A stretch of 64,000 nt of DNA from Methanococcus aeolicus Nankai-3 (GTDB taxonomy: Archaea; AGJL01; Methanococci; Methanococcales; Methanococcaceae): assembly GCF_000017185.1 (NCBI RefSeq), contig NC_009635.1:870563-934562 (forward strand). The letters are read 5' to 3'. Positions 2,367 to 63,886 of this stretch are shown here, in pieces. Positions within the stretch are counted from its first letter, which is position 1; each line of letters opens with the position of its first letter. Under the pieces are notes generated by a model. That model was not told where the DNA came from. It ran no database searches and saw only the letters and a list, made by a program, of their open reading frames with translations. The translations under genes were made by a program, and so were the position numbers.

Positions 2367-2563
2367 TTTGCAGTGATGATATTTCCACATACCAAATTTT
2401 ACATAATATACAATAAACTAAATATTTTTGGCTTACTAGAACTACTTTTTGAACACAAAATATGGGAGCTCCGAAGTCATCTTCACCACAATAAATAATA
2501 TATAAATAATAATAAACACTATATATATTTAGTTATTCTTATTATTCATATTATATTGTAATC

Positions 2564-2705
2564 ATCATTTATTATAAAAAAGAAGGAGAGATATTAATGT
2601 TGATTAATATTCTTACTGCTATTATTATTACCAGTATTATTACCAGTATTATTCTCATTGGTACTATCATTTATTATAAAAAAAAGAAGGAGAGATATTA
2701 ATATG
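2564..2705 (+). repeat. Duplicated leader/ribosome-binding-site segment
   Basis: A direct repeat: about 36 bases from 2564 (starting ATCATTTATTATAAAAAA, containing AAGAAGGAGAGATATTAATG) recur from 2666 with two extra A residues, ending in ATATTAATATG. Each copy carries the ribosome binding site and a start codon. The first copy opens a 34-codon ORF and the second starts the 417-residue enzyme gene. A recent local duplication is the simplest explanation. Confidence 0.75.
2597..2701 (+). CDS. Possible 34-residue hydrophobic leader peptide
   Basis: A short ORF with its own AAGGAGAGAT ribosome binding site, encoding one Ile/Thr/Ser-rich hydrophobic segment followed by a basic tail (YYKKKKERY). 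It ends one base before the ATG of the ornithine cyclodeaminase-like gene, and its last codons are formed by the second copy of the duplicated leader. It may be translated and coupled to the downstream gene, or it may be a by-product of the duplication. No family is recognised. Confidence 0.35.
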   Translation: MLINILTAIIITSIITSIILIGTIIYYKKKKERY

Positions 2706-3956
2706 TTTGTTAGAGAAATTGAATTAAAGGGCCACATTATAGACAATAGAATACTACCAAAAGCATTTGATACGATATTAGAGCTTGATGGGGATTATAC
2801 CGTATTGGAATTTGATATCGGTAAAAGAAAAACCGATATATCATATGCAAAAATGCAAGTTATAGGTAAAAATCAAGAGCACCTGGATAAAATATTGGAG
2901 GAGCTCCAAAACATAGGGGCAGAAATTCCGGAAATCGAAGAGGTAAAAGTAAAACCAGCAGAAAAAGACGGAGTATTGCCAAAAGGATTTTACTCAACAA
3001 CCAATCATCCCACACATATAAAATATAATGGGGAATGGATAGAAGTTAAAAAACCTAAAATGGACGGCATAATTATAGTTTGCCCTGAAACTAAAACAGC
3101 CGAAACTAAGGTAATGAGAGATATTAAAAAAGATGATTTAATTGTTGTTGGACATCATGGCATAAGAGTGATACCTCCAGAAAGACCACGGGCAAAAGGA
3201 GAATTATTTGAGTTTATGAATTCTGATGTATCGGCTGAAAAACCAAAACAGGCAATTGTGGAAAATATTGCAAAAGAGATGTATCAAATAAGAGAAGAAT
3301 ACAGAAAAACAGGCGAAGGAGGAATAGCAATTGTCGGAGGTCCTGCCATCATACACACAGGAGGAGGAAAAGCAATTGCAAAGCTTATTAAAATGGGATA
3401 TATTCAAGCACTACTTGCAGGAAATGCCCTTGCTACCCACGATATAGAAAGTGTTCTTTATGGAACTTCGCTTGGCGTAAATATAAAAACAGGAAAACCA
3501 GTTTTAGGAGGGCATAAGCACCACTTATATGCCATTAATGAAATAACCAAAGCAGGAGGTATAAAAGAAGCCGTAGAGCAAGGCATACTTAAAGAAGGAA
3601 TTATGTATGAATGTGTAAAAAATAATGTTCCATTTGTTCTTGCTGGAAGTATTAGGGACGACGGACCACTTCCAGATGTAATTCCAAATATAATTGAGGC
3701 CCAAAATAAAATGAGAGAGGCAATATTGGATAAAAAAATGACCATAATGATGGCTACACTATTACATTCAATAGCCACAGGAAATTTAATGCCCTCTTAT
3801 GTAAAAACCGTTTGTATTGACATTAATTCCGATGCAGTAACAAAATTAATGGATAGAGGAACTTCCCAAGTAATCGGAGTTGTTACAGATATTGGAGCAT
3901 TTATATCTTTGCTTGTTGATGAATTGGAAAGAATGGAAAATGAAAATACAAAATAA
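2703..3956 (+). CDS. ocd: Ornithine cyclodeaminase-like protein, TIGR00300/LOR-SDH family
   Basis: 417 residues from the ATG at 2703, which has AAGGAGAGAT upstream; an in-frame earlier start at 2658 would encode a basic non-family extension. The N-terminal half (from MFVREIELKG) is the LOR/SDH-type domain of TIGR00300 proteins. The C-terminal half has a Gly-rich nucleotide-binding segment (GGPAIIHTGGGKAIAKL, about residues 227-243). A member of this family from M. maripaludis has been reported as an archaeal ornithine cyclodeaminase making proline from ornithine with NAD, unrelated to the classical enzyme; that function is transferred by similarity. It lies upstream of a DUF2100-like gene. 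Confidence 0.75.
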   Translation: MFVREIELKGHIIDNRILPKAFDTILELDGDYTVLEFDIGKRKTDISYAKMQVIGKNQEHLDKILEELQNIGAEIPEIEEVKVKPAEKDGVLPKGFYSTTNHPTHIKYNGEWIEVKKPKMDGIIIVCPETKTAETKVMRDIKKDDLIVVGHHGIRVIPPERPRAKGELFEFMNSDVSAEKPKQAIVENIAKEMYQIREEYRKTGEGGIAIVGGPAIIHTGGGKAIAKLIKMGYIQALLAGNALATHDIESVLYGTSLGVNIKTGKPVLGGHKHHLYAINEITKAGGIKEAVEQGILKEGIMYECVKNNVPFVLAGSIRDDGPLPDVIPNIIEAQNKMREAILDKKMTIMMATLLHSIATGNLMPSYVKTVCIDINSDAVTKLMDRGTSQVIGVVTDIGAFISLLVDELERMENENTK

Positions 3957-4014
3957 AATAGTAATAATAATATAACAATATCAATAATTGAATAAAAAAA
4001 TATATAGTGATAAA

Positions 4015-4686
4015 ATGGACGAATTAAATAATTCAAAAATACTATTAAAAAAGGCAGTTGGTACCATATCTAAAATAGAAAAATCCAAACCTATAACTAC
4101 TGCCACTCCACAATTAATTAATGAAAAATCCTGGAAAGATGCTGAACCAGGAGTTATAAACAGTGGAGAACTTAAAAAAATGATGTATTCTGCAATTGAA
4201 GCAGATGATTATTTGGGTAAAACTGCCCCAACCCATAAATTAAATAAGGAACAGGCCGAAGAATTCTGTAAAATATTATTCCAGACTAAAAAACATATTG
4301 ATAAAATATTAAAAGAATTTGGTTTTGAAATAACTGAGGGAGCTCCCAAGCTAAACGAAAATTCATTGTATATTGTAGGAAATAAAAAAACACTGAAAAA
4401 TTTAAAGAATATCGAGCCAAATTTAAATATAATATCCACAGAAGGAGTTTTGGAACCAGAGGATATGAAAATTATAAATCCAAAAATTAATGATAAAGCC
4501 CTAATTGGAATTGAAAAAAAATGCAATATTGTTAAAAATCAAATTAATGACCTAATAAATAAAGTAAATCCTTCAACTGTTGTTGTTGTAGTGGATAAAA
4601 ATAATAATGCCGACGAATTAATATATAATAGTGCAAAAAAACATTGGAATGCTATTAAAATAGATATTGAAACTATTTTGGATTAA
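4015..4686 (+). CDS. DUF2100-like methanogen protein
   Basis: 223 residues from the ATG at 4015, chosen because AGTGAT lies just upstream; a TTG at 3988 is the alternative. It is soluble and Lys/Asn/Ile-rich, with no metal motif or signal. The pattern (N-terminal helical half, then an alpha/beta half ending near NPSTVVVVVDKNN) fits the uncharacterised archaeal DUF2100 family as I recall it. It follows the cyclodeaminase-like gene by about 60 bp on the same strand. Function unknown. Confidence 0.6.
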   Translation: MDELNNSKILLKKAVGTISKIEKSKPITTATPQLINEKSWKDAEPGVINSGELKKMMYSAIEADDYLGKTAPTHKLNKEQAEEFCKILFQTKKHIDKILKEFGFEITEGAPKLNENSLYIVGNKKTLKNLKNIEPNLNIISTEGVLEPEDMKIINPKINDKALIGIEKKCNIVKNQINDLINKVNPSTVVVVVDKNNNADELIYNSAKKHWNAIKIDIETILD

Positions 4687-4761
4687 CTATATATATTATA
4701 CAAATAAATATATAATTTACACAATATATCAATGATATAATATTAAATATAGGGTGGATAT

Positions 4762-5034: not shown

Positions 5035-5199
5035 AAATTATGGGAGTTATTATTGGAGCTCCCTGAATACATCACATATATTTATTTTATGAATGTTTTA
5101 TATTCTAAATATAATTTTTATTTTGCATAATTTGTATGGATTTTTTTTATTATATTGATAGTTTTTTATTTTATAATTTAATATTAGAGTGAATGAAAA

Positions 5200-7720: not shown

Positions 7721-7744
7721 GGAGCTCCCAAAAATGGGAGCTCC
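7721..7744. repeat. Paired GGAGCTCC palindromes after leuA
   Basis: Two GGGAGCTCC palindromes separated by 8 bases, just after the leuA stop. Either palindrome can fold on itself, and the two can pair with each other to give a longer stem, followed by T-rich sequence, so the pair could act as a terminator. It is also simply a double instance of the genome-wide iterated palindrome. Confidence 0.5.
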
Positions 7745-8149: not shown

Positions 8150-9754
8150 TTACTCTATTTCTATTTTTGGCTTATATCCTACGGTACCCCAGGAATCTGT
8201 GGTATTTGTTAGTATTCCTATTATGGAATAATTTCCTGCTTCTGTGCCATTAACATATATATATTGTTCCGGGTCTCCGTAATATATGGTTCCTATCATT
8301 GTTTTTGGTTTTAATTCATTATATATAATGTCAGTAGTAGTTTCAGCCCCTACTGTGGCGGTAATATCATTTACATCTTTTAAAAATATCCAATCAATAG
8401 AAATTGTTGCATTACTGTTTGTAAATGTATTTATTGAAATTGGATAGTTATTGTCATTATCTCCATTATTAAATGTATTGGTATATTCCATATCCAATGT
8501 ATCATTTAGTATTGTAAAGGTTAAATTCTGTTCTGAAATCCTTTTTAAACCATATGTGTGGAATTCATTTAGATAATTGTATCCATTGGGAACATAACTC
8601 CCACCGCTTCCATTTCTCATATATAGCCAACTGTCACTCCAATTATAACAATCCCAACCAACCCCATTATAGTCAGATTTTGGTTCAAAAAATCCAACTG
8701 CCTGAGCATGAACCGGCGTAAAGTTCCCTTTAAACATTAACTCATATCCTGTCCCATATGTTTTATTAGTCCATACACTTGAACCGAGCCCTTGAACGAT
8801 TAATTTACTATTGTCAATATAATATCCACCGCTAACATTCCAGGTATTGCCATCTATTCTGGTGTTATCGAATGTATCAAATAATATAAATGTATCTTTT
8901 GGATTTTGTCTATCTATTTTTGTAGTTGAATTATATATTATTTTTATATTGGGGTTACCATTTGAACCAAATAATTCGTTTCTACTACAATTGACCCATA
9001 TTATCGATGTATTAGTAGTTCCCTGCTTCCATGTCTGAACCCAGTAAGGGAGTACAATATTATTTTTTCCCTTATTTTTTCCGATTATTCTTATTTCATT
9101 TGGCGAATCTGAATTATTCATGTGGCCATAATTAAAATTACTATTATTCAATATTATGTAAAATGTATGATATTCATTATTTGGCATATTATTTACAGTT
9201 ATTTCTTTTTCATTATTCCATTCATAGTAAAAATTGTTTTTATAAACATAAGGGTCTGGAATTTTGGACAATATAATATCTTTATTTAATTCTATATTTT
9301 TATTTGATGATATTGTTATGCCATTTACTTCTTTTGTGTAATCTAAATTAACATCACATTTTACATTAACAATAAGTGGGTCATTAGTGTGCGATATACT
9401 AACATTTCCAACCGATATTGTAATATTTTTATCATTTAATTTAGATAATGAATTATTCAATTTTTTTGAAATATTTTTTTCAATGGAGCTCCGAGCCTCC
9501 TCCGCACTGTTATAAAATTCACCATTATTCATTATGCCATATGATATATTTACAAATACATCATTTACTATTTTCTCCAAATTTCTATTTGTTGCTGTTT
9601 CTATATTGTCCGAATATAATGCAATTTTCTTAATTTCTATTGTGTTTTCGACATCCTCGGTCTTCATATTTATTGTTTGATAAAATACCGTAGAGGTCAA
9701 AAACACCAATAAAACCAGCGTTATTGAAGTTTGTGATAAATACATATAATTCAT
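8150..9754 (-). CDS. Secreted DUF2341-like surface protein with pilin-like N-terminus
   Basis: 534 residues. A single hydrophobic N-terminal segment (about 7-27, SQTSITLVLLVFLTSTVFY) is followed by a long Asn/Thr/Ser-rich extracellular part with many N-x-S/T sequons. The C-terminal half (about 300-460) looks like a jelly-roll/laminin-G-like module (FILFDTFDNTRIDGNTWNV, VGFFEPK) as found with DUF2341 proteins. It is the last of four minus-strand genes (from 12710 leftwards) and overlaps the preceding gene by 4 bases. The likely role is a minor pilin or cell-surface adhesin. The exact family is uncertain. Confidence 0.65.
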   Translation of the reverse strand: MNYMYLSQTSITLVLLVFLTSTVFYQTINMKTEDVENTIEIKKIALYSDNIETATNRNLEKIVNDVFVNISYGIMNNGEFYNSAEEARSSIEKNISKKLNNSLSKLNDKNITISVGNVSISHTNDPLIVNVKCDVNLDYTKEVNGITISSNKNIELNKDIILSKIPDPYVYKNNFYYEWNNEKEITVNNMPNNEYHTFYIILNNSNFNYGHMNNSDSPNEIRIIGKNKGKNNIVLPYWVQTWKQGTTNTSIIWVNCSRNELFGSNGNPNIKIIYNSTTKIDRQNPKDTFILFDTFDNTRIDGNTWNVSGGYYIDNSKLIVQGLGSSVWTNKTYGTGYELMFKGNFTPVHAQAVGFFEPKSDYNGVGWDCYNWSDSWLYMRNGSGGSYVPNGYNYLNEFHTYGLKRISEQNLTFTILNDTLDMEYTNTFNNGDNDNNYPISINTFTNSNATISIDWIFLKDVNDITATVGAETTTDIIYNELKPKTMIGTIYYGDPEQYIYVNGTEAGNYSIIGILTNTTDSWGTVGYKPKIEIE

Positions 9755-10284
9755 CCCCCGATATATAATTTAACTTTTGATGAAGTAGTATTTTTTGAAT
9801 AATATACTGGCATCCTTATATTTGTATTATATTTACTTATTGCATCGGAATAATCAATATATCGCTTATTTGAGATATTTATATCATTTTCATCTCCATA
9901 AATTACATACCAACCTTCACTTCTATTTAATGTCACAGTGGCAATGATATAATAAGAGGAGCTCCCATTAAAATTTTTACTTAATATTGTGTTATTATCA
10001 ATTTGTAGTTTATAATTATTTAGTCGTATTGATTCATTTAATAATTGTATTGATTTATTTTTCAGGGCTCCATTTTCCTCATCAAAATAATATAAAAGAA
10101 CGGCATCTTGCAATACTCCACTACTTGCAAGGAGCTCCATCGTAGAAATTCCTTTATCAAATTGATATTCATTCTGGACTGCACCCATATATACATCATT
10201 ATGTTCTGTTAATGATACCGTCCAATACCCCATACCAATCATAAGTATTATTGTTCCAATTAATACATCACTATCAAATATCAT
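9751..10284 (-). CDS. Membrane-anchored pilin-like protein
   Basis: 177 residues. One N-terminal hydrophobic segment (about 7-25, VLIGTIILMIGMGYWTVSL) precedes an extracytoplasmic domain with several N-x-S/T sequons. It overlaps the next gene downstream (ending at 9754) and the gene upstream (10281) by 4 bases each, so the three are almost certainly co-translated. It probably belongs to the same surface filament or complex. No named family is recognised. Confidence 0.6.
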   Translation of the reverse strand: MIFDSDVLIGTIILMIGMGYWTVSLTEHNDVYMGAVQNEYQFDKGISTMELLASSGVLQDAVLLYYFDEENGALKNKSIQLLNESIRLNNYKLQIDNNTILSKNFNGSSSYYIIATVTLNRSEGWYVIYGDENDINISNKRYIDYSDAISKYNTNIRMPVYYSKNTTSSKVKLYIGG

Positions 10285-12197: not shown

Positions 12198-12263
12198 AAT
12201 TTCACCAATTTAGGAGCTCAACATAATCCCCCTAAATTTATTTATTAAATTATCAATATTGCA

Positions 12264-12908: not shown

Positions 12909-13121
12909 ATGGAGCTCCAAGTAAGTGGAACAGTTTGTCCAATACCAGTATTAAAAACAAAAAAAGCACTTGATTCGATGTCAGAAGGAGAAGAATTAAT
13001 TGTAATCGGAGACTATAAACCAGCTCTTGAAAACATTACAAGATTTGCAGAAGAACATGGTCATACAGTTGTATCTGCCGAAGAAACTGAAAATGGATTT
13101 AAAATAATAATAAAAAAGTAA
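12909..13121 (+). CDS. TusA-family sulfur carrier protein
   Basis: 70 residues from the ATG at 12909, set by GGTGAAAAT directly upstream; an earlier in-frame ATG gives a Lys/Asn leader outside the family. The CPIPVLKTKKAL motif contains the CPxP persulfide Cys of the TusA/SirA family. It probably carries sulfane sulfur for tRNA thiolation, Fe-S or cofactor synthesis. It is paired with the DsrE-like gene 30 bp downstream, an arrangement also known in other Methanococcales (as I recall, MJ0990/MJ0989). Confidence 0.85.
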   Translation: MELQVSGTVCPIPVLKTKKALDSMSEGEELIVIGDYKPALENITRFAEEHGHTVVSAEETENGFKIIIKK

Positions 13122-13151: not shown

Positions 13152-13496
13152 TTGAAATTCACTGTAATAATTACATTGGCACCATATGGACAGGAGAAAG
13201 CATATTCTGCCCTTAGATTTGCACTTACCTCAATATTGGAAGGTATAGATATAAATATATTTCTTCTCGAAGATGGAATTTATGTTGCAAAAACTAACCA
13301 AAATCCAGCAGGAGCTCCCAATTATTTAGAATATTTACAAAATTGCATTGAAGCGGGAGCAGTTGTAAAAGTATGTGGTCCATGCTGTAAAGCCAGAGGA
13401 TTAGAAGAAAAAGATTTAATTGATGGAGTTAAATTAGCTACAATGCACGATTTAGTGGCATTTACAAAAGAAAGCGATAAAGTAATTACATTTTAA
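13152..13496 (+). CDS. DsrE/TusD-family sulfur-relay protein
   Basis: 114 residues starting at TTG, with AAGGTGAT four bases upstream. DsrE fold: an N-terminal strand, YGQEKAYSALRFALT, then the Cys-bearing VCGPCCKARGLEEKDL (about residues 75-90), the likely persulfide site. It is predicted to receive or pass sulfur with the adjacent TusA-like protein. A GGAGCTCCC palindrome is embedded in the coding sequence and encodes Gly-Ala-Pro. Confidence 0.82.
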   Translation: MKFTVIITLAPYGQEKAYSALRFALTSILEGIDINIFLLEDGIYVAKTNQNPAGAPNYLEYLQNCIEAGAVVKVCGPCCKARGLEEKDLIDGVKLATMHDLVAFTKESDKVITF

Positions 13497-13567: not shown

Positions 13568-14713
13568 TTATCGAACAGCAAAAAATAGACATTTTAAATA
13601 TTCTAAATTTTTATTTGCCATTGTAATTATATGATCAGGAGATTGTGTCCTATAATCTCCAATTTGCATAATTTCTTTTTTTGCCCTAAGGGAGGACGAA
13701 ACCACCATATTTTTAAAAGATTCTCTATCGATATGATGGGAACAGGAACAGGATATAAATAATCTTTTTGATAATTTTAATCCTATCGTATTCATTGTGC
13801 TGTATGCTTTTAAAGCTGTTTTTATATCTTTTTTAGATTTTGTGAATGTTGGAGGATCTAAAATTACAACATCAAATTTTTCATTGTTGCCAATCATATC
13901 TCTCATTACATCAAAGGCATTTCCATTTATAAACTCATAATTTTGTATGTTGTTGAGCTCCATATTTTCCCCTGCTACTTCAATTGCCTTATCGGAAATA
14001 TCTACACCTACAACGCTTGCCCCTTTTATACCACAATGGACTGAAAAACCACCAGTATAACAACAAATATCTAAAACTTTATCTCCTTTTTTAATATATT
14101 TTTCTAAATTTATTCTGTTTTCTCTTTGGTCTAAGAAAAAACCTGTTTTATGCCCCTTTAAATTTACCTTAAATTTTGCATTTCCTTCATTTATTATTGT
14201 TTCAATGTTGGATTTATCCCCATATATTTTTGAATTAATTTCTTTACTTCCTTTTTTTGCACTTTGGACATGTAGCGTATTAATATTAGCTATCTCATTT
14301 AGGCACTCAAAAATAATGGGAGCATAATTTTCCATAACTGTTGAGGATAATTGCATAGAAGCTAAATCGTTATATTTATCCAATATAATTGAAGGCATTA
14401 AATCAGCTTCGGCATATATCATTCTATATGTATCTTTATAATTTAATATGGTTTTACGGTAATTATTGGCTTCTTTTATACGATTATAAAAGAAATCTTT
14501 GTCTATTTCCTCATCATTTAGAGTTAGTATTTTAATTGTAGGAGCTCCCGGATTATATAATGCCTTTGCTACAAAATTATTATTATAATTAATTGTTATT
14601 ATTTGTTCTTTTTCTGGAAAATCCTCTTTATTTATTACAGCATTTTTATAAATAATCCGTGAAAAATTCTTAATTGAAGTATATGCCCTTTTATCTATTT
14701 CTATTTTTATCAA
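13568..14713 (-). CDS. Class I SAM-dependent rRNA methyltransferase, RlmI-like
   Basis: 381 residues. An N-terminal PUA-like part precedes a Rossmann methyltransferase: motif I VLDICCYTGGFSVHC (about 216-230), the acidic loop VVGVDIS, and motif IV ILDPPTFTKSK (about 287-297), with a later FISCSCSHH. This is the RlmI/COG1092 pattern (23S rRNA m5C), but archaeal substrates are not established. It is followed 26 bp upstream on the same strand by atwA. The start has GGTGATTTT. Confidence 0.8.
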   Translation of the reverse strand: MIKIEIDKRAYTSIKNFSRIIYKNAVINKEDFPEKEQIITINYNNNFVAKALYNPGAPTIKILTLNDEEIDKDFFYNRIKEANNYRKTILNYKDTYRMIYAEADLMPSIILDKYNDLASMQLSSTVMENYAPIIFECLNEIANINTLHVQSAKKGSKEINSKIYGDKSNIETIINEGNAKFKVNLKGHKTGFFLDQRENRINLEKYIKKGDKVLDICCYTGGFSVHCGIKGASVVGVDISDKAIEVAGENMELNNIQNYEFINGNAFDVMRDMIGNNEKFDVVILDPPTFTKSKKDIKTALKAYSTMNTIGLKLSKRLFISCSCSHHIDRESFKNMVVSSSLRAKKEIMQIGDYRTQSPDHIITMANKNLEYLKCLFFAVR

Positions 14714-14739: not shown

Positions 14740-16389
14740 TTATTGCCCCAAAAATTTAGAGCAACTTCTTTCTATAAATTCATTACAAATTTTTTCGGGA
14801 GCTCCATCGCCGATTAATTTATTTTCATCAATTAATATTGCCCTATGACTTATTTCTTTTATAAGTTCTATATGGTGGCTTATTACAACTATGGTAGTTC
14901 CAAATTTATTATTTATTTTCTTTAAGTAATTAGAAACCTCCCGCAATGTAATCGGGTCTAAATCTCCAAATGGTTCATCAAGTAATAATATTTTTGGCTT
15001 TGATATAATTTGTAAAGCTAATGCCACCCTTACCCGTTCTCCTCCGCTTAATTCCATTGGTGTCTTTTTTAATATTTCTTCATCTAAATCAAGAGCACTT
15101 AAAACTTCTTTGGGATGGAAATCATCGACAACAGCAGGGAATAATAGTTTTACAATATCCTCTGATATTCCTAATTTTTCAAGTTTATTTTTCATCTCTG
15201 CTTCTGGTAAATCTATAAGCTGATAAATAGCATCTACTGTTTTAGGAGATATATTTAACTCCGCAGATTTTAATTTTGCATTTGATATGGCACCTTCTCC
15301 CTTAATTCCTTGCCTGTATTTTAACAGCTGTTCTACTGTTAAGTAATGGGTTAATGAGAATTCTTGGTGCATAATTCCTATTTTTCTTCTTAATTGCACT
15401 CTCTCCCAACCATAATCCGTTAAATCAACGCCATCAATGGTAATTGTTCCATTATCGGGGACTTCCAAACCTGCCAGTAATCTTAACAATACAGATTTAC
15501 CTGTTCCACTTGGACCAATAATTGATAAGATTTCTTGTTCTTTTACGCTAAATGATATATCCTTTAAATTTAGTGTTTCTCCCCCATTAACTACAAAATA
15601 TCTTTTTGATATGTTATTTACTTCTATTTCGTTGTTATCTTTGGGTGCTCCCATATTTTGCTCTGGTTCAGGCATATCTTTTAAAAACTCATTTATTATT
15701 TGGTTGGGAGCTCCCTCCATTTTCACCCTACCATTTTCTAATAATATACATCTATCACATAGATATTCATGTATTTCTGGAAGATGGGAAGTAATAATAA
15801 TTGTAATATTTAATTTATCATTGATATTTTTTAAAACTTCTAATAAAGCCTGTTTTGAAGCAGGGCATGACATTGTAGCAGGTTCATCAAGTAATAAAAC
15901 CCCCTCTCCTTTTTCGTATATTTTTGCTATTTGTCTTCCCATTATAAGCCGTTGCTTTTCTCCTCCACTTAATATATTTGAATAGGCATTTTTTTTATGC
16001 TCCAATCCAACAAGTTTTAATATTTCTGTTGCAGTTTTTTCGTATTCTTCCCACTCCTCTTCCATAGGGAGCTCCTCATTATATGAGTTAGTTCTTATGG
16101 CATATAATTTCCTAATTATATTGTATATGGCAGGTTCGGCCCATAGTGCAAAATTCCTTTGTATGTGTATTGCAGTAATCTCTCGTAAATTTTCTTTTTT
16201 ACCGCATATTTCAATTTCCCCTTCGTATTCTTTGTCTGTTCCTCTCAATATTTTAATTATTGTAGATTTTCCAGCCCCTGATTTTCCAATTATTCCAACA
16301 ATTTCTCCTTTTTTAGCTTCAAAACTTATGTTATCGAGCACCTTTTTTTTACCATAATATTTAGATAAATTATTTACTTTAACTGTCAT
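14740..16389 (-). CDS. atwA: Methyl-coenzyme M reductase activation component A2
   Basis: 549 residues, two fused ABC ATPase domains without membrane segments. The first has Walker A GKSGAGKST (about 36-44), signature LSGGEKQR and LLLDEPATMSCPASKQ. The second has GPSGTGKSV (about 293-301), LSGGERVR and LLLDEPFGDLDPI. The second-domain DHPKEV-type insertion and overall plan match component A2, which with ATP helps reductively activate the Ni(I) F430 of methyl-CoM reductase. Several GGAGCTCC palindromes encode Gly-Ala-Pro or Glu-Leu inside it. The start has AAGGTGCGAT. Confidence 0.9.
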   Translation of the reverse strand: MTVKVNNLSKYYGKKKVLDNISFEAKKGEIVGIIGKSGAGKSTIIKILRGTDKEYEGEIEICGKKENLREITAIHIQRNFALWAEPAIYNIIRKLYAIRTNSYNEELPMEEEWEEYEKTATEILKLVGLEHKKNAYSNILSGGEKQRLIMGRQIAKIYEKGEGVLLLDEPATMSCPASKQALLEVLKNINDKLNITIIITSHLPEIHEYLCDRCILLENGRVKMEGAPNQIINEFLKDMPEPEQNMGAPKDNNEIEVNNISKRYFVVNGGETLNLKDISFSVKEQEILSIIGPSGTGKSVLLRLLAGLEVPDNGTITIDGVDLTDYGWERVQLRRKIGIMHQEFSLTHYLTVEQLLKYRQGIKGEGAISNAKLKSAELNISPKTVDAIYQLIDLPEAEMKNKLEKLGISEDIVKLLFPAVVDDFHPKEVLSALDLDEEILKKTPMELSGGERVRVALALQIISKPKILLLDEPFGDLDPITLREVSNYLKKINNKFGTTIVVISHHIELIKEISHRAILIDENKLIGDGAPEKICNEFIERSCSKFLGQ

Positions 16390-16602: not shown

Positions 16603-16662
16603 TGGTGTATAGTGAAAATATATAGGGGAGCTCCCAAAAAGCATAACCCATTGTGTGATAAA

Positions 16663-17436: not shown

Positions 17437-17437
17437 T

Positions 17438-18016
17438 TTATTTATTCATTAATTTCTCAAAGCATTCCATGCATACAACCTTTCCGTCGATTAATCTCCC
17501 CTTAATTTCCATAAAATACTCCCCACACTCATCACATTTAAGTGAAGGATATATTTTAGCTTTTTCAGGTTCTGGAATATCCACTTCCTCAATATTTAGG
17601 AGCTCCCCATCAAATAAGTTTAATATTTTTTCAGCGCATTTGCCTTTTAATTCATCCATAAGCTTTATTCTTTCTTTGTCTGAAACCTTGCTTAATTTAT
17701 CCCACATATTATTCATTTCATTAGTTATTTCATCTTTAAATGAAACTCTAATACCTTTTTTATGCTCTCTTGAATAAAATACATAAACGGGCTTTCCATA
17801 GTCTTTAAATATTAAATTTCCCTTCCCAAAGGTGCATCCAAGTAAATATTGAATTGCATCAACACTACATGAATTATTATATACAATAGCTACAAGCTCC
17901 TCGTCCTCCGATTTTTTATAGTGATTTTGAACATATTTTGCCACCCTATACCCCATAGCTAAACCAGGGCAAAAATGACCATGAAATTCTATTGTATTCT
18001 TTAAATCCTCTTTCAT
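17438..18016 (-). CDS. FmdE-family protein with C-terminal zinc ribbon
   Basis: 192 residues. The start HGHFCPGLAMGYRVA (about 12-26) is the FmdE signature, with a conserved Cys and His. NNSCSVDAIQYLLGCTFGKGNL follows, and a CxxC...CxxC zinc finger closes the protein (CDECGEYF...CMECFEKL). FmdE is co-transcribed with molybdenum formylmethanofuran dehydrogenase in some methanogens and binds metal, but its role is unclear. No fmd gene is adjacent here. The start has GTGAATAT upstream. Confidence 0.85.
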   Translation of the reverse strand: MKEDLKNTIEFHGHFCPGLAMGYRVAKYVQNHYKKSEDEELVAIVYNNSCSVDAIQYLLGCTFGKGNLIFKDYGKPVYVFYSREHKKGIRVSFKDEITNEMNNMWDKLSKVSDKERIKLMDELKGKCAEKILNLFDGELLNIEEVDIPEPEKAKIYPSLKCDECGEYFMEIKGRLIDGKVVCMECFEKLMNK

Positions 18017-22796: not shown

Positions 22797-22827
22797 TAAT
22801 TTTTGGGAGCTCCCATCATATATTTTA

Positions 22828-26971: not shown

Positions 26972-27030
26972 TTTATCATCATTAAAATTAATTGGAGCTC
27001 CAAGGAGCTCCTATATTTTTATTTATTATT

Positions 27031-49033: not shown

Positions 49034-49161
49034 AATTACACCAAATTGATTAATATATTAATTATTTATATGGTTATATAATTATATATTCATTTATAAA
49101 AATAGAATAATGATAAAAATAAAAATATGATATATTGGGAGCTCCTGCTAAAAATCCCAAT

Positions 49162-50179: not shown

Positions 50180-51301
50180 ATGCTCCAAAATGTTAATGAC
50201 AAAACATTAATTAAAAAATCAATATTGGGAATTAAAAAATTAGCAGATGAATTAAACAAAGATGTAAAAATAATGCATGTATGCGGTTCTCATGAACATA
50301 CAATATGCAAATATGGAATAAGAGATGTATTGCCAAATAATATAACTGTTATACCGGGTCCGGGCTGTCCTGTATGTGTTACAACCCAAAAAGAAATTGA
50401 TAAGGCCATATATTTAGCAGAAAAAGGATATACTGTTGCCACACTCGGGGACATGTATAGAGTTCCAGGAAGTGAAAAATCATTGATGCAACTTCAATCA
50501 GAGGGGGCCGATGTAAAAATAGTATATGGTATAGGGGATGCCGTTAAATTTGCAAAGGAAAATCCAGATAAAAAGGTTGTATTTGTGGCAATAGGATTTG
50601 AAACCACTGCACCAACTACGGCTTCGGAGCTCCTTAGTTTAAATAATTACAACAATAATGAAGACAATATAAAAAATAATAAAACCATAGATAATTTCCA
50701 TATATTGAACTGCCATAGGCAAACTCCACCAGTTATGGACTTCTTATTAAGAGAGGGAACTGTAAATATGGACGGATTTATATGTCCCGGGCATGTTTCA
50801 GTTATTACTGGATTAAAACCATATTATGCACCTTGTGAAAAATATAAAGCTCCAATGGTGGTTGCAGGATTTGAACCAATTGATGTTTTAATGTCTATAT
50901 TTTTAATATTAAAACAGATGATAAATGAGGAGGCAAAAGTAGAAAATGCCTATAAAAGAGGGGTTAGGGAGGAAGGAAATATTGTAGCTCAAAAAATTAT
51001 AAATAAAGTATTCGAACCTTGCGATGTAGCTTGGAGGGGTTTTCCAGTAATTACCGATGGAGGATTAAAATTAAGAGAAGAATATGAAAAATATGATATA
51101 CACAATATAGAGGAGCTCCCTGTAATTGAAGAAAAAATAAACAAAGCCTGTATATGTAGTAAAATATTGAGGGGAGAAAAATTACCAACTGACTGTAAAT
51201 TGTTCGGAGCTCCCTGCAATCCAATGAATCCAATAGGTAGTTGTATGGTTTCAGACGAGGGAACATGCAGAATATTTTATAAATACCATAATAAATTATA
51301 A
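50180..51301 (+). CDS. hypD: Hydrogenase formation protein HypD
   Basis: 373 residues from the ATG at 50180 (TGTGATAA upstream). All HypD hallmarks are visible: MHVCGSHEHTICKYG (about 32-46), PGPGCPVCVT (about 63-72), GFETTAPTT, the CHRQTPPVMDFLL block, GFICPGHVSVI, and the C-terminal CKLFGAPCNPMNPIGSCMVS binding a 4Fe-4S cluster. With HypC it builds the Fe(CN)2CO moiety of [NiFe]-hydrogenases. It stands alone apart from the downstream P-type ATPase. Confidence 0.95.
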   Translation: MLQNVNDKTLIKKSILGIKKLADELNKDVKIMHVCGSHEHTICKYGIRDVLPNNITVIPGPGCPVCVTTQKEIDKAIYLAEKGYTVATLGDMYRVPGSEKSLMQLQSEGADVKIVYGIGDAVKFAKENPDKKVVFVAIGFETTAPTTASELLSLNNYNNNEDNIKNNKTIDNFHILNCHRQTPPVMDFLLREGTVNMDGFICPGHVSVITGLKPYYAPCEKYKAPMVVAGFEPIDVLMSIFLILKQMINEEAKVENAYKRGVREEGNIVAQKIINKVFEPCDVAWRGFPVITDGGLKLREEYEKYDIHNIEELPVIEEKINKACICSKILRGEKLPTDCKLFGAPCNPMNPIGSCMVSDEGTCRIFYKYHNKL

Positions 51302-51333: not shown

Positions 51334-54003
51334 ATGGGATATCTGGGTTTAACCGCACAGGAAGCCGAAGAAAGATTAAAGAAATATGGCTACAATGAAT
51401 TAGAGGTAAAAAAGAAAATAACATGGTTTAATATATTAGTTAGACAATTTGTTAGTAATTTTTTAGTGTGGGTTCTTATTGTAGCTATGGCCATATCGGC
51501 TTATATCGGCGAGATGCTTAATTTTTGGATGATATTATTTTTAATAATTTTTGTTATTATGATGGGATTTGTTCAAGAATATAAGGCTGAAAAGGCCATG
51601 GAATCTTTAAAAAAATTCATTCAATATAAAACCCAAGTTATAAGGGACGGTTGGGCATGTGAGATATTTAGTAAAGAAGTAGTTCCGGGGGATATTTTAG
51701 TTTTAAAAATGGGCGATAAAATTCCTGCTGATGCAAAAATTATAACAACTTCAGGAGAATTTAAAGTTGATGAGTCAATTTTAACTGGCGAAAGTAATGT
51801 TGTAAAAAAATCTAAGGAGGATTTAATTTTTGCTGGAACTCAGGTCGTGCATGGAGCATGTAAATCCACCGTAATTAATACGGGCATGAAAACAGAACTT
51901 GGAAAAATTGCGGAGATGGTTGAAAAAGAAGAAGAAAAAACCCCACTTCAAATAAAAATACATAATTTAGGAAAAACTTTATCATTTGTTGCCCTATTGG
52001 CCTGTATTCTCATTTTTAGTTTTGGTATTTTTATGGGAGCTCCCATTTATAGTATGTTAATGGTTGCATTGGCTCTTGCAGTGGCTGCTGTTCCTGAGGG
52101 ACTTCCCCTTGCCCTTACTCTTACATTATCTCTTGGTATGCATAATATGGCAAAGCATAATGCAGTTGTAAGAAAGATGCTTGCAGTTGAAACCCTTGGT
52201 TCAGTTACTGTGATTTGCACAGATAAAACAGGAACATTAACAAAAAATGAAATGACTGTTGAGAAAATTTATGTAAATGGCGAATTTTATGACATTGGGA
52301 CAATTGACAGCGAATCAAAAGAATATATTTTAAAAGAAGGTAAAAAAATAGAGCCCGATGAAGAAAAAAATCTAATTTTATTATTAAAGGCTGTTTCGTT
52401 ATGCAATAATGCCCAAATAACCAGTCCAATATCTCCTGAAACCATCGAAACTGATATGTTGGGAGACCCTACGGAAGTGGCACTTGCCGTTGTAGGAACA
52501 AAAATAGGGTTGTGGAAGCATAATTTAGATGCAGAATATCTGAAAATACATGAAATACCATTTACATCTAAAAGAAAATTAATGACAACCGTTCATCGCA
52601 TAAATGATAATGAATCAATAGTATTCACAAAGGGAGCTCCCGAAGTAATATTAAATACCTGTAAATTTATTGAAAAAAATAATGAAATTGAAGAGATTGA
52701 TGGGAGTACTATTGAAGAGATATTAATGACAAACAGCGATTTGGCAGGTTCTTCTTATCGAGTTATTGGAGTAGCATATAAAAAAATTTCTAATTATGAT
52801 ATAGATAATTTAAATGACAATATTATAGAGAAAGATTTAACTTTTTTAGGACTCATAGGAATGATAGACCCCCCCAAAAAAGGAGTATATGAAGCAGTTA
52901 AATCATGCAAAAAAGCAGGCATAGAAATTATAATGATAACCGGCGATGGTGAAGAAACTGCAAAAGCAATAGGGGAAAAAATTGGCATATATACTAAAGA
53001 TGAAGATGAAAATAAAATAAATGATTCAGATATAGTAAAAAATATAATTAAAAAGGGAACTATTGTAGGAACTGAATTGGATAGTTTAAGCGAAGATGAA
53101 TTTGACATTATTGTTGATGCTGTTAGCATATATGCAAGAGTTGTGCCCGAACAGAAGCTTAAAATTGTAAAGTCATTGAAAAAGAAAGGACATATCGTAG
53201 CTATGACCGGCGATGGTGTTAATGATGCTCCTGCTTTAAAGATAGCGGATATAGGCATAGCAATGGGCAAAAAGGGAACAGATGTTGCAAAAGAATCAAG
53301 TGATATGATACTTCAAGATGATAATTTTGCCACGATAGTGGAGGCCATTAAGATAGGTAGAAATATTTATGAAAATATAGAAAAATTCACCTGTTATTTA
53401 GTATCCCATAATTTTATGCAGGTTATCCTTATAGCCATTGGAATATTTATATTTGGATTTGATTATCTGCCGTTATTGCCATTACATATTTTATTTATAA
53501 ATGCAGTTGGTGAAGAACTACCTGCCATATCACTTGGAATGAGCCCCGTTAGAAAAGAAATTATGGATAAACCCCCAAGAAAGACACAAAACATACTTAA
53601 TAAAATGAATTTATATTTAGTTTCCAGTTTAGCCATATTTATGACGGTTGTAGTTTTTGGAGTATTTATTTTCTCCAATCCATTGGAAAATATAGAATAT
53701 GCAAGAACCATGGCATTTAGTGTAGTGGTTGGAATGATAATATTTAACACATTTAACTTTATATCGCTCGATAAATCCATATTTAAAATAGATTATCCAT
53801 TAAATAAAATGCTAATTATAGCCATATCATTTATCGCAATAATAACAATAGGTATCTTAAATATTTCTTATTTAAAAGAAATTTTTAAATTTGCATCACT
53901 CAATTTAAAAGATTGGATTATATGCATAATAGCATCATTTTCAACAGTTATATTTATGGAATTCATTAAAATACATAACAAATTTAAAAATAGCAATAAA
54001 TAA
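51334..54003 (+). CDS. P-type cation-transporting ATPase, Ca2+-type (P2)
   Basis: 889 residues from the ATG at 51334 (GGTGTGATATTT upstream). About ten membrane spans; cation-site PEGLPLALTLTLSLG in M4, phosphorylation site CTDKTGTLTKNE (about 293-304), KGAPEVIL, TGDGVNDAPALK, and a cation ATPase C-terminal domain. It has an N-terminal cation-ATPase domain (LTAQEAEERLKKYGYNEL). It resembles SERCA/PMCA-type pumps and is most likely a Ca2+ (or Mn2+) exporter. The gene starts 32 bp after hypD. Confidence 0.92.
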   Translation: MGYLGLTAQEAEERLKKYGYNELEVKKKITWFNILVRQFVSNFLVWVLIVAMAISAYIGEMLNFWMILFLIIFVIMMGFVQEYKAEKAMESLKKFIQYKTQVIRDGWACEIFSKEVVPGDILVLKMGDKIPADAKIITTSGEFKVDESILTGESNVVKKSKEDLIFAGTQVVHGACKSTVINTGMKTELGKIAEMVEKEEEKTPLQIKIHNLGKTLSFVALLACILIFSFGIFMGAPIYSMLMVALALAVAAVPEGLPLALTLTLSLGMHNMAKHNAVVRKMLAVETLGSVTVICTDKTGTLTKNEMTVEKIYVNGEFYDIGTIDSESKEYILKEGKKIEPDEEKNLILLLKAVSLCNNAQITSPISPETIETDMLGDPTEVALAVVGTKIGLWKHNLDAEYLKIHEIPFTSKRKLMTTVHRINDNESIVFTKGAPEVILNTCKFIEKNNEIEEIDGSTIEEILMTNSDLAGSSYRVIGVAYKKISNYDIDNLNDNIIEKDLTFLGLIGMIDPPKKGVYEAVKSCKKAGIEIIMITGDGEETAKAIGEKIGIYTKDEDENKINDSDIVKNIIKKGTIVGTELDSLSEDEFDIIVDAVSIYARVVPEQKLKIVKSLKKKGHIVAMTGDGVNDAPALKIADIGIAMGKKGTDVAKESSDMILQDDNFATIVEAIKIGRNIYENIEKFTCYLVSHNFMQVILIAIGIFIFGFDYLPLLPLHILFINAVGEELPAISLGMSPVRKEIMDKPPRKTQNILNKMNLYLVSSLAIFMTVVVFGVFIFSNPLENIEYARTMAFSVVVGMIIFNTFNFISLDKSIFKIDYPLNKMLIIAISFIAIITIGILNISYLKEIFKFASLNLKDWIICIIASFSTVIFMEFIKIHNKFKNSNK

Positions 54004-54837: not shown

Positions 54838-54878
54838 GGAGCTCCCCTTAATGATTTATTTGATATATTTTTTATTTT

Positions 54879-57213: not shown

Positions 57214-59010
57214 TTAAATTCCCCAGAATGGATTGTTCTCTAACTTTCTTTTTAATTCCACATATCTTTCAAATGCCTCTCTTTCGTCCCCCCTTAACTC
57301 GCCCATATAATTATGAGATAATATTCTTACCTCTGGTTCAGGGAGCTCCACATACATAATATCATCTTCCCCGATATGTCTCCCAAGAATTACAGTTCCA
57401 TCAATAGAAATTGGAACCTCCATTCCAACTTTTGCCTCTTTTATATTTTCCTGTTTTTTATCTTTAATTTCTTTAACAGTCCCTAATCTTTTACCCTGTT
57501 CATCTACAACAGAACAGCCAACTCTCAGCGTTCCATATACTACCTCCACGCCACAAATGGCGGGTTTTGTTTTATTAAAAATACATCCGGGAATTATTCT
57601 CAATATGGCGGGTTTTGTTAATCTATTAAACTCATCTGATTTTAATAATTCTTTCATTTCTTTTGTCCATTCTTCATAATCTTCAACAAGTTTATAAATA
57701 ATGTCTCCTTCGAATGTTTTTATCTCATATTTTTCTACTTCACTTTTTGCATCTGCCAATAGTTTTGAGTTAAATAATATAATTGCCCCATTTAATGGAT
57801 TAGTTTGAGCATAAGATGAAGCTTCGATTACATCTTTTTTTGAAACATCTCCAACTTCTGCCTTTTTGATTTTTGCACCTACCTTTCTTAATTCTGTTGC
57901 AAGTGCCTCCAATGAACCAAGAGTATCTGCCTTTATAATTATACCTTCTTCGTCTAGTTGTATGGCTGTTTCCTCTATCTCTTCCACAATTTCGGCTTTT
58001 GCCTGTTCCACCATATTTTTTGGCACAATTCTTAAAGGGCTACCTGCTATAATATTGTCTAAATCAGGGGCAGATATTTTAAGACCAGTTGCAGCACTAA
58101 TTTCATTCATTGTTTTAAATTTATCCCTCGGGTCCCTCATTTCATCTAGTGCCTTTGGCTTTAAAAGAGCCTTTATTCTAGAAACCACAATTCCGTCGGG
58201 ATTTCCTATTACAATGTAGTCCCCCCTTTTTGCCACGCCATCATAAATTATGGCATCCATGGTTTTTCCAAGCCCTCTTTCTTCTTTAACTTCAAGAACT
58301 GTTCCTTTGGCATATCCTTCTACATTTAATTTTAAATTTTGTTCCATAAATCTTTGAGCAAGACCGGAAATCATAACAAGTAAATCAGGGATTCCCTCCC
58401 CCGTCATTGCAGATATTGGCACAATATTTATGGTTTTTGAAACATCTTTTACTCTGGAAAAAAGGTCGGCTTCAAATCCCCTTTCTGCCAGAGGTGCTAT
58501 CACATTTTCATACAACTTAATTTCAAATTCTGTTAAAGCATTTGGGTGCTGTTTCTGTTCGTTAAAGTTTGTAATGAATGCCCCATCTACGGAGCTCCAC
58601 CCCGGCAACCTATCAATTTTATTTGCTGCAACTACAAATGGAGTTTTATTTTGTTTTAATATATTTAGTGCCTCTATTGTTTGGGGCATGAATCCTTCAT
58701 TTATATCTACAATCAATACTGCAATATCTGCCAGAGCTCCCCCTCTTTTTCTGAGTGAAGTAAATGCTGCATGCCCCGGTGTATCTATAACTAATATTCC
58801 GGGAATGGTTAAATTTGCACCCAACATTTTAATTAAATCCTTTGATATTTTCTTTATAATATCTATTGGAATTTCACTTGCCCCGATGTGTTGAGTAATT
58901 CCCCCTGCCTCTCTCTGTGTAACCCTCGTTTTTCTAATTTTATCGAGCAAACTTGTTTTTCCATGATCTACATGACCAAGAACACTAACTATTGGACATC
59001 TTAATGCCAT
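57214..59010 (-). CDS. infB: Translation initiation factor aIF5B (IF-2)
   Basis: 598 residues from the ATG at 59010 (CGGTGATAGAT upstream). GTPase G1 GHVDHGKTSLL (about 14-24), G2 GGITQHIGA, G3 DTPGHAAF, G4 NKIDR, then domain II and C-terminal EF-P/IF2 domains. It lacks the intein found in the M. jannaschii protein: the P-loop runs straight through. It promotes subunit joining and initiator tRNA placement. Confidence 0.95.
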   Translation of the reverse strand: MALRCPIVSVLGHVDHGKTSLLDKIRKTRVTQREAGGITQHIGASEIPIDIIKKISKDLIKMLGANLTIPGILVIDTPGHAAFTSLRKRGGALADIAVLIVDINEGFMPQTIEALNILKQNKTPFVVAANKIDRLPGWSSVDGAFITNFNEQKQHPNALTEFEIKLYENVIAPLAERGFEADLFSRVKDVSKTINIVPISAMTGEGIPDLLVMISGLAQRFMEQNLKLNVEGYAKGTVLEVKEERGLGKTMDAIIYDGVAKRGDYIVIGNPDGIVVSRIKALLKPKALDEMRDPRDKFKTMNEISAATGLKISAPDLDNIIAGSPLRIVPKNMVEQAKAEIVEEIEETAIQLDEEGIIIKADTLGSLEALATELRKVGAKIKKAEVGDVSKKDVIEASSYAQTNPLNGAIILFNSKLLADAKSEVEKYEIKTFEGDIIYKLVEDYEEWTKEMKELLKSDEFNRLTKPAILRIIPGCIFNKTKPAICGVEVVYGTLRVGCSVVDEQGKRLGTVKEIKDKKQENIKEAKVGMEVPISIDGTVILGRHIGEDDIMYVELPEPEVRILSHNYMGELRGDEREAFERYVELKRKLENNPFWGI

Positions 59011-59798: not shown

Positions 59799-60241
59799 AC
59801 TACCACCAATTTTTTAATATCTTCCTTTAAAATATTTTTTAATTCTATTATTTCATTAATTGCAATATTTTCAACTGTAAGCCATATTATTACAATATTA
59901 TCCCCTTCTTTTTCAAGTGTGGTGGATAATATATTGCCACCCAGATTTGAGATATTTAAAGATATATCTGCCAAAAGCCCAATTCTATCTTTTGCTATTA
60001 TTTGAACTTTTGTAGTAATTAAACTTATTTTATTTTTTTCAACCAAATATATTCCTTCTTTTGTTAAATATGCTCCGCCAGACCTGCCTTTTTTCGTAGT
60101 TAATAACCCCAAATCCCTTAAAACTCGAATATATCTATCTACATTTTTTGGGTGAAGGTTTAATTGTTGAGCTATATCTTTTGTAGTATTGTATTTTAAT
60201 AATTGTTCCATTATATTTTTAGTAGTTCCTTGGAGCTCCAT
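59795..60241 (-). CDS. Winged-helix plus ACT-domain regulator
   Basis: 148 residues. An N-terminal helix-turn-helix (LLKYNTTKDIAQQLNLHPKNVDRYIRVLRDLGLL) and a C-terminal ACT domain (about 75-148, TKVQIIAKDRIGLLADISLNISNLGGNI) that normally binds an amino acid. It is likely an amino-acid-sensing transcription factor. The promoter region is shared with the divergent moaC. No target is identified. Confidence 0.78.
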   Translation of the reverse strand: MELQGTTKNIMEQLLKYNTTKDIAQQLNLHPKNVDRYIRVLRDLGLLTTKKGRSGGAYLTKEGIYLVEKNKISLITTKVQIIAKDRIGLLADISLNISNLGGNILSTTLEKEGDNIVIIWLTVENIAINEIIELKNILKEDIKKLVVV

Positions 60242-60794: not shown

Positions 60795-60795
60795 T

Positions 60796-60915: not shown

Positions 60916-60950
60916 CTCCATTATTAAAATACAGATCGAGTAGGATATTT

Positions 60951-61946
60951 ATGTGGAATTTAGAAACCGACAGAGTAATAAAAGAAATAGAAAAATCAAA
61001 TGGGAAAAATATAGTATTTCATGCACCAGAAGGTTTAAAATTAGCCGTTGAAAAAGAAATAGAAAAAATAAATGATTATTTTAACAGCACTAAAAATTTA
61101 ATAATGTGGGGAGCTCCATGCTATGGTGCATGTGATTTATGCGACCATGAATTAAAATATAATAATATTGATTTAATAATTCACTATGGGCATGAGGAGC
61201 TCCCATATGCAAAACCAGACATACCAACAATTTTCATACATTGCTACTATATTTATGATGAAATTGAACAAAACAATATATTAAATAAAATAGATGAATA
61301 TTTACAAAATAATCCAAACACCATAATTACAACCACAATACAATTTAAAGAATTGTTAAAAAAATATAATCCAAATATAATTCTTGGTTGTAGGGCAAAT
61401 ATATCCAATAAACCAAAATCAGAATTAGAACAGGGAACAGAGAAAGAAACAGAAAACAGCAAAATATTATATATTGGAACGGGGCGATTTCACCCATTAA
61501 TGTTATGTTATAAATTTAAAAAATCTGTGAATTTATTTAATCCGACATCCAAAGAGTTTTCTGCCATATCAGAAGAGGAAGTAAATAAATTTATTAAAAA
61601 AAGAATTGGGGCCATTTCAAAATTATTAATAAATCCACCTAAAAAAATTGGAGTTGTTTTATCCACTAAAAAAGGGCAAAATAGAATAAATGTATACAAT
61701 AAAATAATAAATTTATTAAAAGACAATAATATTGAATATATGCCGATTATATTAAATAATGCCTCACCAGATAATTTATTTTATGATGTGTCTGCATATA
61801 TTATATGTGCCTGTCCTAGAATTGTGTTAGATGATTATTTAAATTACAATAAAACATTATTAACCCCTAAAGAGTTTGAAATGTATATTAAAAAAGATTT
61901 TGAATATGTTTTTGACGAAATATTATTTGATGATTTCGAACCCTAG
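60951..61946 (+). CDS. dph2: 2-(3-amino-3-carboxypropyl)histidine synthase (diphthamide)
   Basis: 331 residues. Three Cys blocks typical of archaeal Dph2 are visible: WGAPCYGACDLC (about 53-64), LGCRANIS and ICACPRIVLDDY (about 285-296), which bind a noncanonical 4Fe-4S cluster for radical SAM chemistry on aEF2 histidine. HYGHEELPY and YIGTGRFHPL are also conserved. Two GGAGCTCC palindromes are embedded. AGGATATTT precedes the start. Confidence 0.93.
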   Translation: MWNLETDRVIKEIEKSNGKNIVFHAPEGLKLAVEKEIEKINDYFNSTKNLIMWGAPCYGACDLCDHELKYNNIDLIIHYGHEELPYAKPDIPTIFIHCYYIYDEIEQNNILNKIDEYLQNNPNTIITTTIQFKELLKKYNPNIILGCRANISNKPKSELEQGTEKETENSKILYIGTGRFHPLMLCYKFKKSVNLFNPTSKEFSAISEEEVNKFIKKRIGAISKLLINPPKKIGVVLSTKKGQNRINVYNKIINLLKDNNIEYMPIILNNASPDNLFYDVSAYIICACPRIVLDDYLNYNKTLLTPKEFEMYIKKDFEYVFDEILFDDFEP

Positions 61947-61983
61947 GTTCAATTAACAAAATTATAAAATAATTTTGTCCAAT

Positions 61984-62119: not shown

Positions 62120-62187
62120 TATAATAATGATAAAAATAGCAAATTGTAATAAAAATATAAAATCAAAAAATAGTAAAATTAATTTAA

Positions 62188-62289: not shown

Positions 62290-62364
62290 AGTATCACACT
62301 CGATTAATTTTATCAAATTTATAATATTTTATCATATAATCAATATTAATTATAATCATATAAA

Positions 62365-62604: not shown

Positions 62605-62679
62605 AAAAACCACATAAATAAATTATAATATACCATAATATATTTATAACTATTTATAATTTTTGTATGGCCGTATTAT

Positions 62680-63546
62680 TTATAACAACCCATACTCTTT
62701 TAGTGCTGTTTCTAATTTAAATTTATTTTCTTCTTCCATTTTACATAATGGAAGTCGTAAATCACCAGCAGGCATATTTAATAAATTCATTGCGGTTTTT
62801 ATTGGCACAGGATTAGTTTCAATAAATAAGGACTTCATAAGATTAAATAATTTATAATGTATTTCACGAGCCTCTTTAAATTTGCCTTCATTAGCATAAT
62901 TTACCATTTGGACAAATTCATTTGGAACTATGTTGGCAACAACACTAATAACCCCATTACCTCCGAGAGATATTACGGGCAAGGTTAATTCATCATTTCC
63001 AGAAAGCACAGATATATCACATGAATTTATAACATCCGATATATGGGATAAATCTGGATTTGCTTCTTTAACAGTTGTAATGTTGCTGTATTCCTCATAT
63101 AGATATTTTATAGTTTCAGGTTGGAGATTTACAGCTGTTCTAGAAGGAACATTATATAATACTATCGGAATATTTATTGATTCCGCTATTTTAGAGAAAT
63201 GCTGTTTTAATCCTTCCTGGGTGGGTTTATTATAGTAAGGAGTTATTAATAGCACAGAATCAGCACCAACATCTTCCGCAAATTGAGAAAGTGCAATCGC
63301 CTCTTCTGTTGAGTTTGAACCAGCACCAGCTATAACATCCACCTTTCCATCACATACACTAACGGATTTTTCAATAATCTTTTTGTGTTCATCATGGGAT
63401 AAAGTAGGAGATTCGCCAGTTGTTCCAACTGATACTATGCCATTAACTCCATTATCGATTAAAAAGTTTATGTTTTGTTCTAAACCTTCGTAATCTACTC
63501 CCCCATTTTTAAATGGAGTAATAATTGCAGGAAACACTCCTTGCAT
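62680..63546 (-). CDS. dapA: 4-hydroxy-tetrahydrodipicolinate synthase
   Basis: 288 residues, standard length. GTTGESPTLSHDEH (about 42-55), PYYNKPTQEGLKQHF (about 103-117), catalytic Tyr in VLYNVPSRTAVNL (about 131-143), and Lys in TVKEANPDLSHI (about 158-169). First committed step of lysine synthesis. It is followed upstream on the minus strand by eS17 and chorismate mutase, an order also recalled from M. jannaschii. The start has GGTGATTTT. Confidence 0.94.
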   Translation of the reverse strand: MQGVFPAIITPFKNGGVDYEGLEQNINFLIDNGVNGIVSVGTTGESPTLSHDEHKKIIEKSVSVCDGKVDVIAGAGSNSTEEAIALSQFAEDVGADSVLLITPYYNKPTQEGLKQHFSKIAESINIPIVLYNVPSRTAVNLQPETIKYLYEEYSNITTVKEANPDLSHISDVINSCDISVLSGNDELTLPVISLGGNGVISVVANIVPNEFVQMVNYANEGKFKEAREIHYKLFNLMKSLFIETNPVPIKTAMNLLNMPAGDLRLPLCKMEEENKFKLETALKEYGLL

Positions 63547-63582
63547 AAAATCACCAATTAAGACATATACCTACCATACTGA

Positions 63583-63774
63583 TTATGCATCGACTTTTTT
63601 CATTTTTTTAGTTACATATCCTGCAACCCTATTTCTAAGTCTTTTGGTAGCTATCTCTGCAACCTCATCTATAACTTTTTTGTTTGTTTCAAAATCTGTG
63701 GTTAATCTGTCTTCATATTTTTCTACAAGGTCTTCCCCTGCTCTTTTAATAAATGTTTGTCTAATTCTTCCCAA
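63583..63774 (-). CDS. rps17e: Ribosomal protein eS17
   Basis: 63 residues starting GRIRQTFIKRAGEDLVEKYEDRLTTDFETNK, the eS17 family pattern, and ending in a basic NRVAGYVTKKMKK stretch. The small-subunit protein is found in archaea and eukaryotes. The start has AGGTGATAACTT. A GGAGCTCC lies 15 bp upstream. Confidence 0.95.
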   Translation of the reverse strand: MGRIRQTFIKRAGEDLVEKYEDRLTTDFETNKKVIDEVAEIATKRLRNRVAGYVTKKMKKVDA

Positions 63775-63886
63775 GTTATCACCTGTATAGGAGCTCCTAT
63801 TTATTTATTATATAATATATTTACATATTTGTGTTTTATTCAATTTACCGAAAATATATTAACCAACCATATATTGCAATCATTAT

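Follow-up and report, generated by a model that had tools for sequence, protein, structure and literature searches.

A GAGCTC-centred palindrome hyperabundant in Methanococcus aeolicus and some of its relatives, possibly favoured by a factor acting in trans

The stretch of DNA analysed here, a 64,000-nucleotide window of the Methanococcus aeolicus Nankai-3 genome (NC_009635.1, positions 870,563 to 934,562), is strewn with the eight-letter perfect palindrome GGAGCTCC. An exact word search of the window finds 55 copies, where a Markov model of order 1 expects 0.14 and one of order 2 expects 0.33 (log10 P ~ -100), and it is the sole non-A/T word among the most frequent 8-mers. An initial annotation had counted about 54 sites and proposed a highly iterated palindrome (HIP) comparable with HIP1 of cyanobacteria; all the coordinates it listed are correct, and the first site of the window lies at 1814. 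The genome-wide comparison with a Markov model that it called for gives the same picture: the single contig of 1,569,500 bp carries 1,259 copies against 3.6-11.4 (about 6) expected under orders 1-4, computed with the sites masked, which is a hundreds-fold excess, and the word written backwards occurs 0 times. The hexameric core GAGCTC occurs 1,645 times in the genome, 77% of these being GGAGCTCC. Near-misses, whose presence had also been reported, reach 3-11 times the Markov expectation for most variants and are most frequent at the outer positions, where the deviations of HIP1 are likewise concentrated; the extension to GGGAGCTCCC, described at first as frequent, is common but belongs to a minority of sites (9 of 55 in the window, 215 of 1,259 in the genome). 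As a palindromic oligomer in gross genome-wide excess, both within and between genes, GGAGCTCC is a HIP by pattern.

In window coordinates, and with no strand to be assigned to a palindrome, GGAGCTCC sites extended to GGGAGCTCCC lie at 4339-4346, 7721-7728, 15707-15714, 16627-16634, 21789-21796, 22806-22813, 28861-28868, 52036-52043 and 52633-52640. The other GGAGCTCC sites lie at 1814-1821, 2465-2472, 2900-2907, 5055-5062, 7737-7744, 9485-9492, 9958-9965, 10131-10138, 12911-12918, 13311-13318, 14541-14548, 14798-14805, 16068-16075, 17599-17606, 18282-18289, 19390-19397, 20040-20047, 22484-22491, 24923-24930, 25106-25113, 25631-25638, 26994-27001, 27004-27011, 27988-27995, 31487-31494, 32868-32875, 33800-33807, 35715-35722, 36666-36673, 37906-37913, 40319-40326, 41717-41724, 43879-43886, 44943-44950, 45045-45052, 49138-49145, 50626-50633, 51112-51119, 51206-51213, 54838-54845, 57342-57349, 58591-58598, 60232-60239, 61110-61117, 61196-61203 and 63790-63797; GAGCTC is present as the core only at 12214-12219, 13955-13960, 23153-23158, 38588-38593, 42133-42138, 46459-46464, 46512-46517 and 58734-58739. 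The sites at 26994 and 27004 form a pair 10 bp apart. Pairs spaced by 8-10 bp number 12 in the genome against about 3 expected at random, a mild excess, and could fold into hairpins. Long palindromic or terminator hairpins are ruled out as the nature of the repeat, most sites being single unextended copies.

On mechanical calls of open reading frames (ORFs), 1,020 of the GGAGCTCC sites are coding (0.75 per kb) and 238 intergenic (1.10 per kb), so that density is higher between genes. Coding sites are read in all three frames, as Glu-Leu (482), Gly-Ala-Pro (360) and Ser-Ser (178), which is the decoding originally given, and 30% of all CTC codons fall within them. The predominance of Glu-Leu is what might recommend codon-pair or compositional bias alone as the cause, a possibility that the initial annotation had itself named as fatal to its proposal. 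However, each of the three frames stands 7- to 45-fold above the expectation from codon usage, and the enrichment is therefore not codon-pair bias; together with the higher intergenic density and the absence of the backwards word, this leaves such an explanation with a negligible probability. Enrichment in all frames recurs in samples of two relatives, M. okinawensis and genome G019, making three carriers in total; for the relatives, the sequence read amounted to 260 kb of chromosome in M. okinawensis and 140 kb in G019, with short portions of further genomes.

Placement along the Nankai-3 genome also bears on a second alternative, in which GAGCTC is bound by a protein of the nucleoid, of segregation or of transcription ends and every site is selected for its usefulness at its own position. 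An excess of sites lies within 0-60 bp after stop codons, with a maximum of 3.3 per kb between 20 and 40 bp, and convergent gaps hold 2.35 per kb, which would favour this view. Against this, most sites lie within genes and in every frame, the excess 3' of genes is missing from the M. okinawensis sample, and a plasmid and a provirus, described below, are enriched as well. Spacing is near random, with a coefficient of variation (CV) of 0.985 against 0.997 in simulation, and counts in 5-kb bins are only slightly even (variance/mean 0.83), so that even spacing of the sites, considered in its own right, is only mild. We regard a locally useful protein site as improbable. The rRNA operon region is devoid of GGAGCTCC, and the longest site-free stretch of the genome, at 398-412 kb, is a surface-glycan locus.

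Among 36 genomes of Methanococcales, GAGCTC is hyperabundant in four: Nankai-3 (1,645), M. okinawensis IH1 and two more, G019 among them (2,070, 1,315 and 1,515 in these other three), while the remaining 32 contain between 4 and 229 copies. In an EF-2 tree, from which genome G015 was left out, the carriers do not form a single clade, and at least two changes are needed to account for this on/off distribution. One non-carrier, G014, has 14 GAGCTC against 83 CTCGAG, which may reflect specific avoidance of GAGCTC. The flanks of the core are loose in the M. okinawensis and G019 stretches, and Nankai-3 narrows it to GGAGCTCC, so that related genomes differ by what may be called dialects. The unit conserved across relatives is thus GAGCTC, and GGAGCTCC is Nankai-3's own version; the octamer first proposed as the unit does hold as an iterated palindrome throughout this genome, but it is not what the relatives share. 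A weak outer preference around GAGCTC (T at -5, little T at -2) recurs in three sampled genomes, although the preference for T at -5, being found around some control words as well, is in part a coding effect.

Comparison of orthologous sites, another check proposed at the outset, separates carriers from non-carriers. GAGCTC sites of Nankai-3 are kept at 64 of 154 aligned positions in M. okinawensis (42%), against 19 of 183 (10%) for one-off control words (Fisher P = 3e-11), and at 0 of 141 in non-carriers (carrier against non-carriers, P = 3e-22); in G019, a more distant carrier, 12 of 99 are kept, barely above the controls (7 of 87). Amino-acid identity falls to 0.53 at the sites from about 0.69 nearby, and to 0.40 from about 0.62 in the comparison with non-carriers, and alignment gaps at sites are rare (6 of 191). 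The dip in identity and the rarity of gaps therefore indicate that sites were gained by substitution and not by insertion, and the insertion of small elements is ruled out as their origin. Sites arise at weakly constrained positions, partly at a cost to protein sequence.

The enrichment extends to mobile DNA. The M. okinawensis plasmid NC_015632.1 carries 13 GAGCTC against 0.8 expected, and a 15-kb provirus in Nankai-3 (genome positions 1,294,105-1,309,327) carries 9 against about 0.7, 3 of the 9 being GGAGCTCC. The provirus lies beside a tRNA cluster, its integrase adjoining tRNA-His, the last 20 bp of which are repeated at 1,309,308; it encodes a packaging ATPase and an MCM-like helicase sharing 45% identity with one from Methanocaldococcus fervens tailed virus 1, and no viral relatives of it were found in IMG/VR. 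Elements of non-carrier Methanocaldococcus have 1 GAGCTC (a virus of 22 kb) and 0 (a plasmid of 16.5 kb). That plasmid and provirus are both enriched speaks for a force acting in trans on resident DNA and against a purely chromosomal role. Within the Nankai-3 chromosome, islands at 354-362 kb and 433-447 kb, and a borderline one at 526-533 kb, are dense in GAGCTC that mostly lacks the GG/CC flank; their -2 position (A 0.33, C 0.32, T 0.17) matches that of M. okinawensis (0.37, 0.31, 0.14). These M. okinawensis-type flanks point to exchange of DNA between dialects, the islands probably having been imported from a relative. The 433-447 kb island is a surface-glycan locus and the 526-533 kb island holds nitrogenase-like genes.

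In cyanobacteria the reason for HIP1 has been an open question since 1995, and the leading model combines methylation with MutS. Transferred to the present case, the model of Elhai would have an orphan methyltransferase mark GAGCTC and methyl-directed mismatch repair create and maintain the sites. The pattern itself is the same, an octameric palindrome at about 1 per kb with a core, flanks and deviations at the outer positions (PMC4390886 for HIP1). The machinery is another matter. MutS (PF00488) was detected in 0 of the 4 carriers, the control genomes being positive, and NucS, run with positive controls, went undetected in all four, so that its substituting for MutS is ruled out. Vsr (PF03852), likewise searched with positive controls, was found in none of the 36 genomes, carriers included, and the transition neighbours of the word are near expectation and not depleted, which disposes of Vsr-like mismatch conversion; the only neighbour with strong depletion includes GATC, a word avoided genome-wide.

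A methyltransferase for GAGCTC, the enzyme that the initial annotation suggested looking for, did not emerge when every predicted ORF was scanned for motifs and Pfam searches were run. One DNA methyltransferase is recognised in Nankai-3, an N6_N4_Mtase with a C-terminal staphylococcal-nuclease-like (SNase-like) domain (genome positions 207,511-208,851), and its gene overlaps that of an RE_MjaI enzyme, the restriction system spanning 206,895-208,851. MjaI is specific for CTAG. This neighbour, and the absence of the methyltransferase from two carriers, M. okinawensis and G019, rule it out as the GAGCTC enzyme. A copy 97% identical to it, with one internal TAA, lies on contig C76 of G015, where protein identity is otherwise about 70%; it is a recent transfer or belongs to a mis-binned contig. 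No C5-methyltransferase scored above the cut-off in Nankai-3, M. okinawensis or G015; Nankai-3 has no HsdM, and its weak matches look on inspection like RNA- or protein-type methyltransferases. Among the recognised families, none common to the carriers was found. The methylome of M. aeolicus PL15/Hp (CP104873), another strain and determined by a method blind to 5-methylcytosine (5mC), lists CTAG, GTNAC, GCACY and CGAG, with no GAGCTC among its m6A and m4C motifs (PMC10113651). The Nankai-3 genome strongly avoids ACGT (0.04 of expected), GATC (0.11), GTAC (0.27) and CTAG (0.32). This avoidance is a footprint of restriction, whether current or former. The two testable requirements of the published HIP1 model (PMC4390886) thus fail, and the parallel drawn initially holds for the pattern but not for the proposed mechanism, which we think has little chance of applying here.

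The closest rival to the explanation that we favour is that GAGCTC is a DNA uptake sequence proper, DNA containing it being preferred by the competence machinery, so that transformation builds up sites in the manner of Neisseria and Haemophilus. Much of the pattern would fit: a density near 1 per kb, dialects that differ from one relative to the next, near-random positions, weakly constrained codons, the enrichment of one-off variants, signs of exchange between dialects, and even the Nankai-3 excess just 3' of genes, and M. maripaludis is naturally transformable (PMC10133366). However, known uptake sequences are non-palindromic (PMC1939737) and GGAGCTCC is a perfect palindrome. Transformable M. 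maripaludis notwithstanding, no genome is enriched in the genus-level group (g2) that we take to include it. The surface-glycan locus at 398-412 kb was acquired or retained even though it has almost no GAGCTC, it is not obvious why a provirus should bear signals for uptake, and the 3' excess is not repeated in the M. okinawensis sample. We consider uptake proper unlikely, if less so than either local protein binding or the HIP1 mechanism.

The best reading, although we would put it at somewhat less than an even chance, is a drive or selection exerted in trans by a putative GAGCTC-binding factor and probably linked with recombination or with the transfer of DNA. GAGCTC would be the target of this sequence-specific force on all DNA resident in the carrier Methanococcaceae. 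We infer that a host-encoded, probably dimeric factor binding the palindrome would favour site-bearing DNA during recombination or transfer. In a polyploid cell, with its many genome copies, the site might signal in the manner of Chi or of biased gene conversion; alternatively, it might be a signal in the exchange of DNA between cells. In either case a new site would spread to the remaining copies or to more cells, a lost one would be restored, and in Nankai-3 the preferred site would have narrowed to GGAGCTCC. M. maripaludis is polyploid, with up to about 55 genome copies (PMC9430280), and is competent, as noted above.

Several points weigh against this reading. Neither a protein that binds GAGCTC nor a gene for one came to light. 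Polyploidy and competence are borrowed from M. maripaludis, which belongs to the same family but to a group without the trait, and gene conversion and uptake enter as candidate processes; since non-carriers are presumably polyploid too, ploidy alone cannot explain the trait. Methyltransferases of unknown families could still exist, and positive selection on single sites for some other function would produce many of these traces too.

Among known systems, HIP1 (GCGATCGC) and the alternate HIPs of cyanobacteria are alike in being GC-rich octameric palindromes at about 1 per kb within and between genes, in their spread by substitution with mostly outer deviations, in their on/off occurrence between related genomes and in a core that exists in both loose and strict forms. 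GGAGCTCC differs from HIP1 in sequence and domain of life, in the failure to find a cognate methyltransferase or MutS, and in being demonstrably enriched on a plasmid and a provirus. The DNA uptake sequence (DUS) of Neisseria and the uptake signal sequence (USS) of Haemophilus share the density, the dialects round a core, the one-off gradient and the weakly constrained codons, but not the palindromy or the presence on a provirus, and any uptake bias here is putative. Chi is also a short word over-represented on its host genome, but it has an orientation and is linked to RecBCD-type enzymes, whereas the word here is palindromic and any reader enzyme is putative. Restriction-modification of the SacI type recognises the same hexamer, but here the sites are enriched and not avoided; no GAGCTC methyltransferase or cognate enzyme was found, the SacI endonuclease family itself not having been searched. 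A role in self-recognition or recombination would explain the presence of GAGCTC on mobile elements. The initial annotation knew of no such palindrome in Methanococcus, and we too found no description in the open-access literature searched, although priority is not certain.

An archaeal case without detected methylation or MutS machinery separates the HIP pattern from the mechanism that combines them. It is possible, though we advance this more tentatively than the binding factor, that these sites represent a new class of archaeal palindromic genome signal, spread through recombination or DNA transfer without methylation or mismatch repair and serving as a self-mark that hosts, plasmids and viruses share in dialects; if this is true, cyanobacterial HIP1 might have the same basis. 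For the Methanococcaceae themselves, the occurrence of carriers and close non-carriers within one family, some of whose species are genetically tractable and transformable, makes the ideas of recombination, uptake and binding directly testable, and through the dialects one can tell where imported DNA in these genomes came from.

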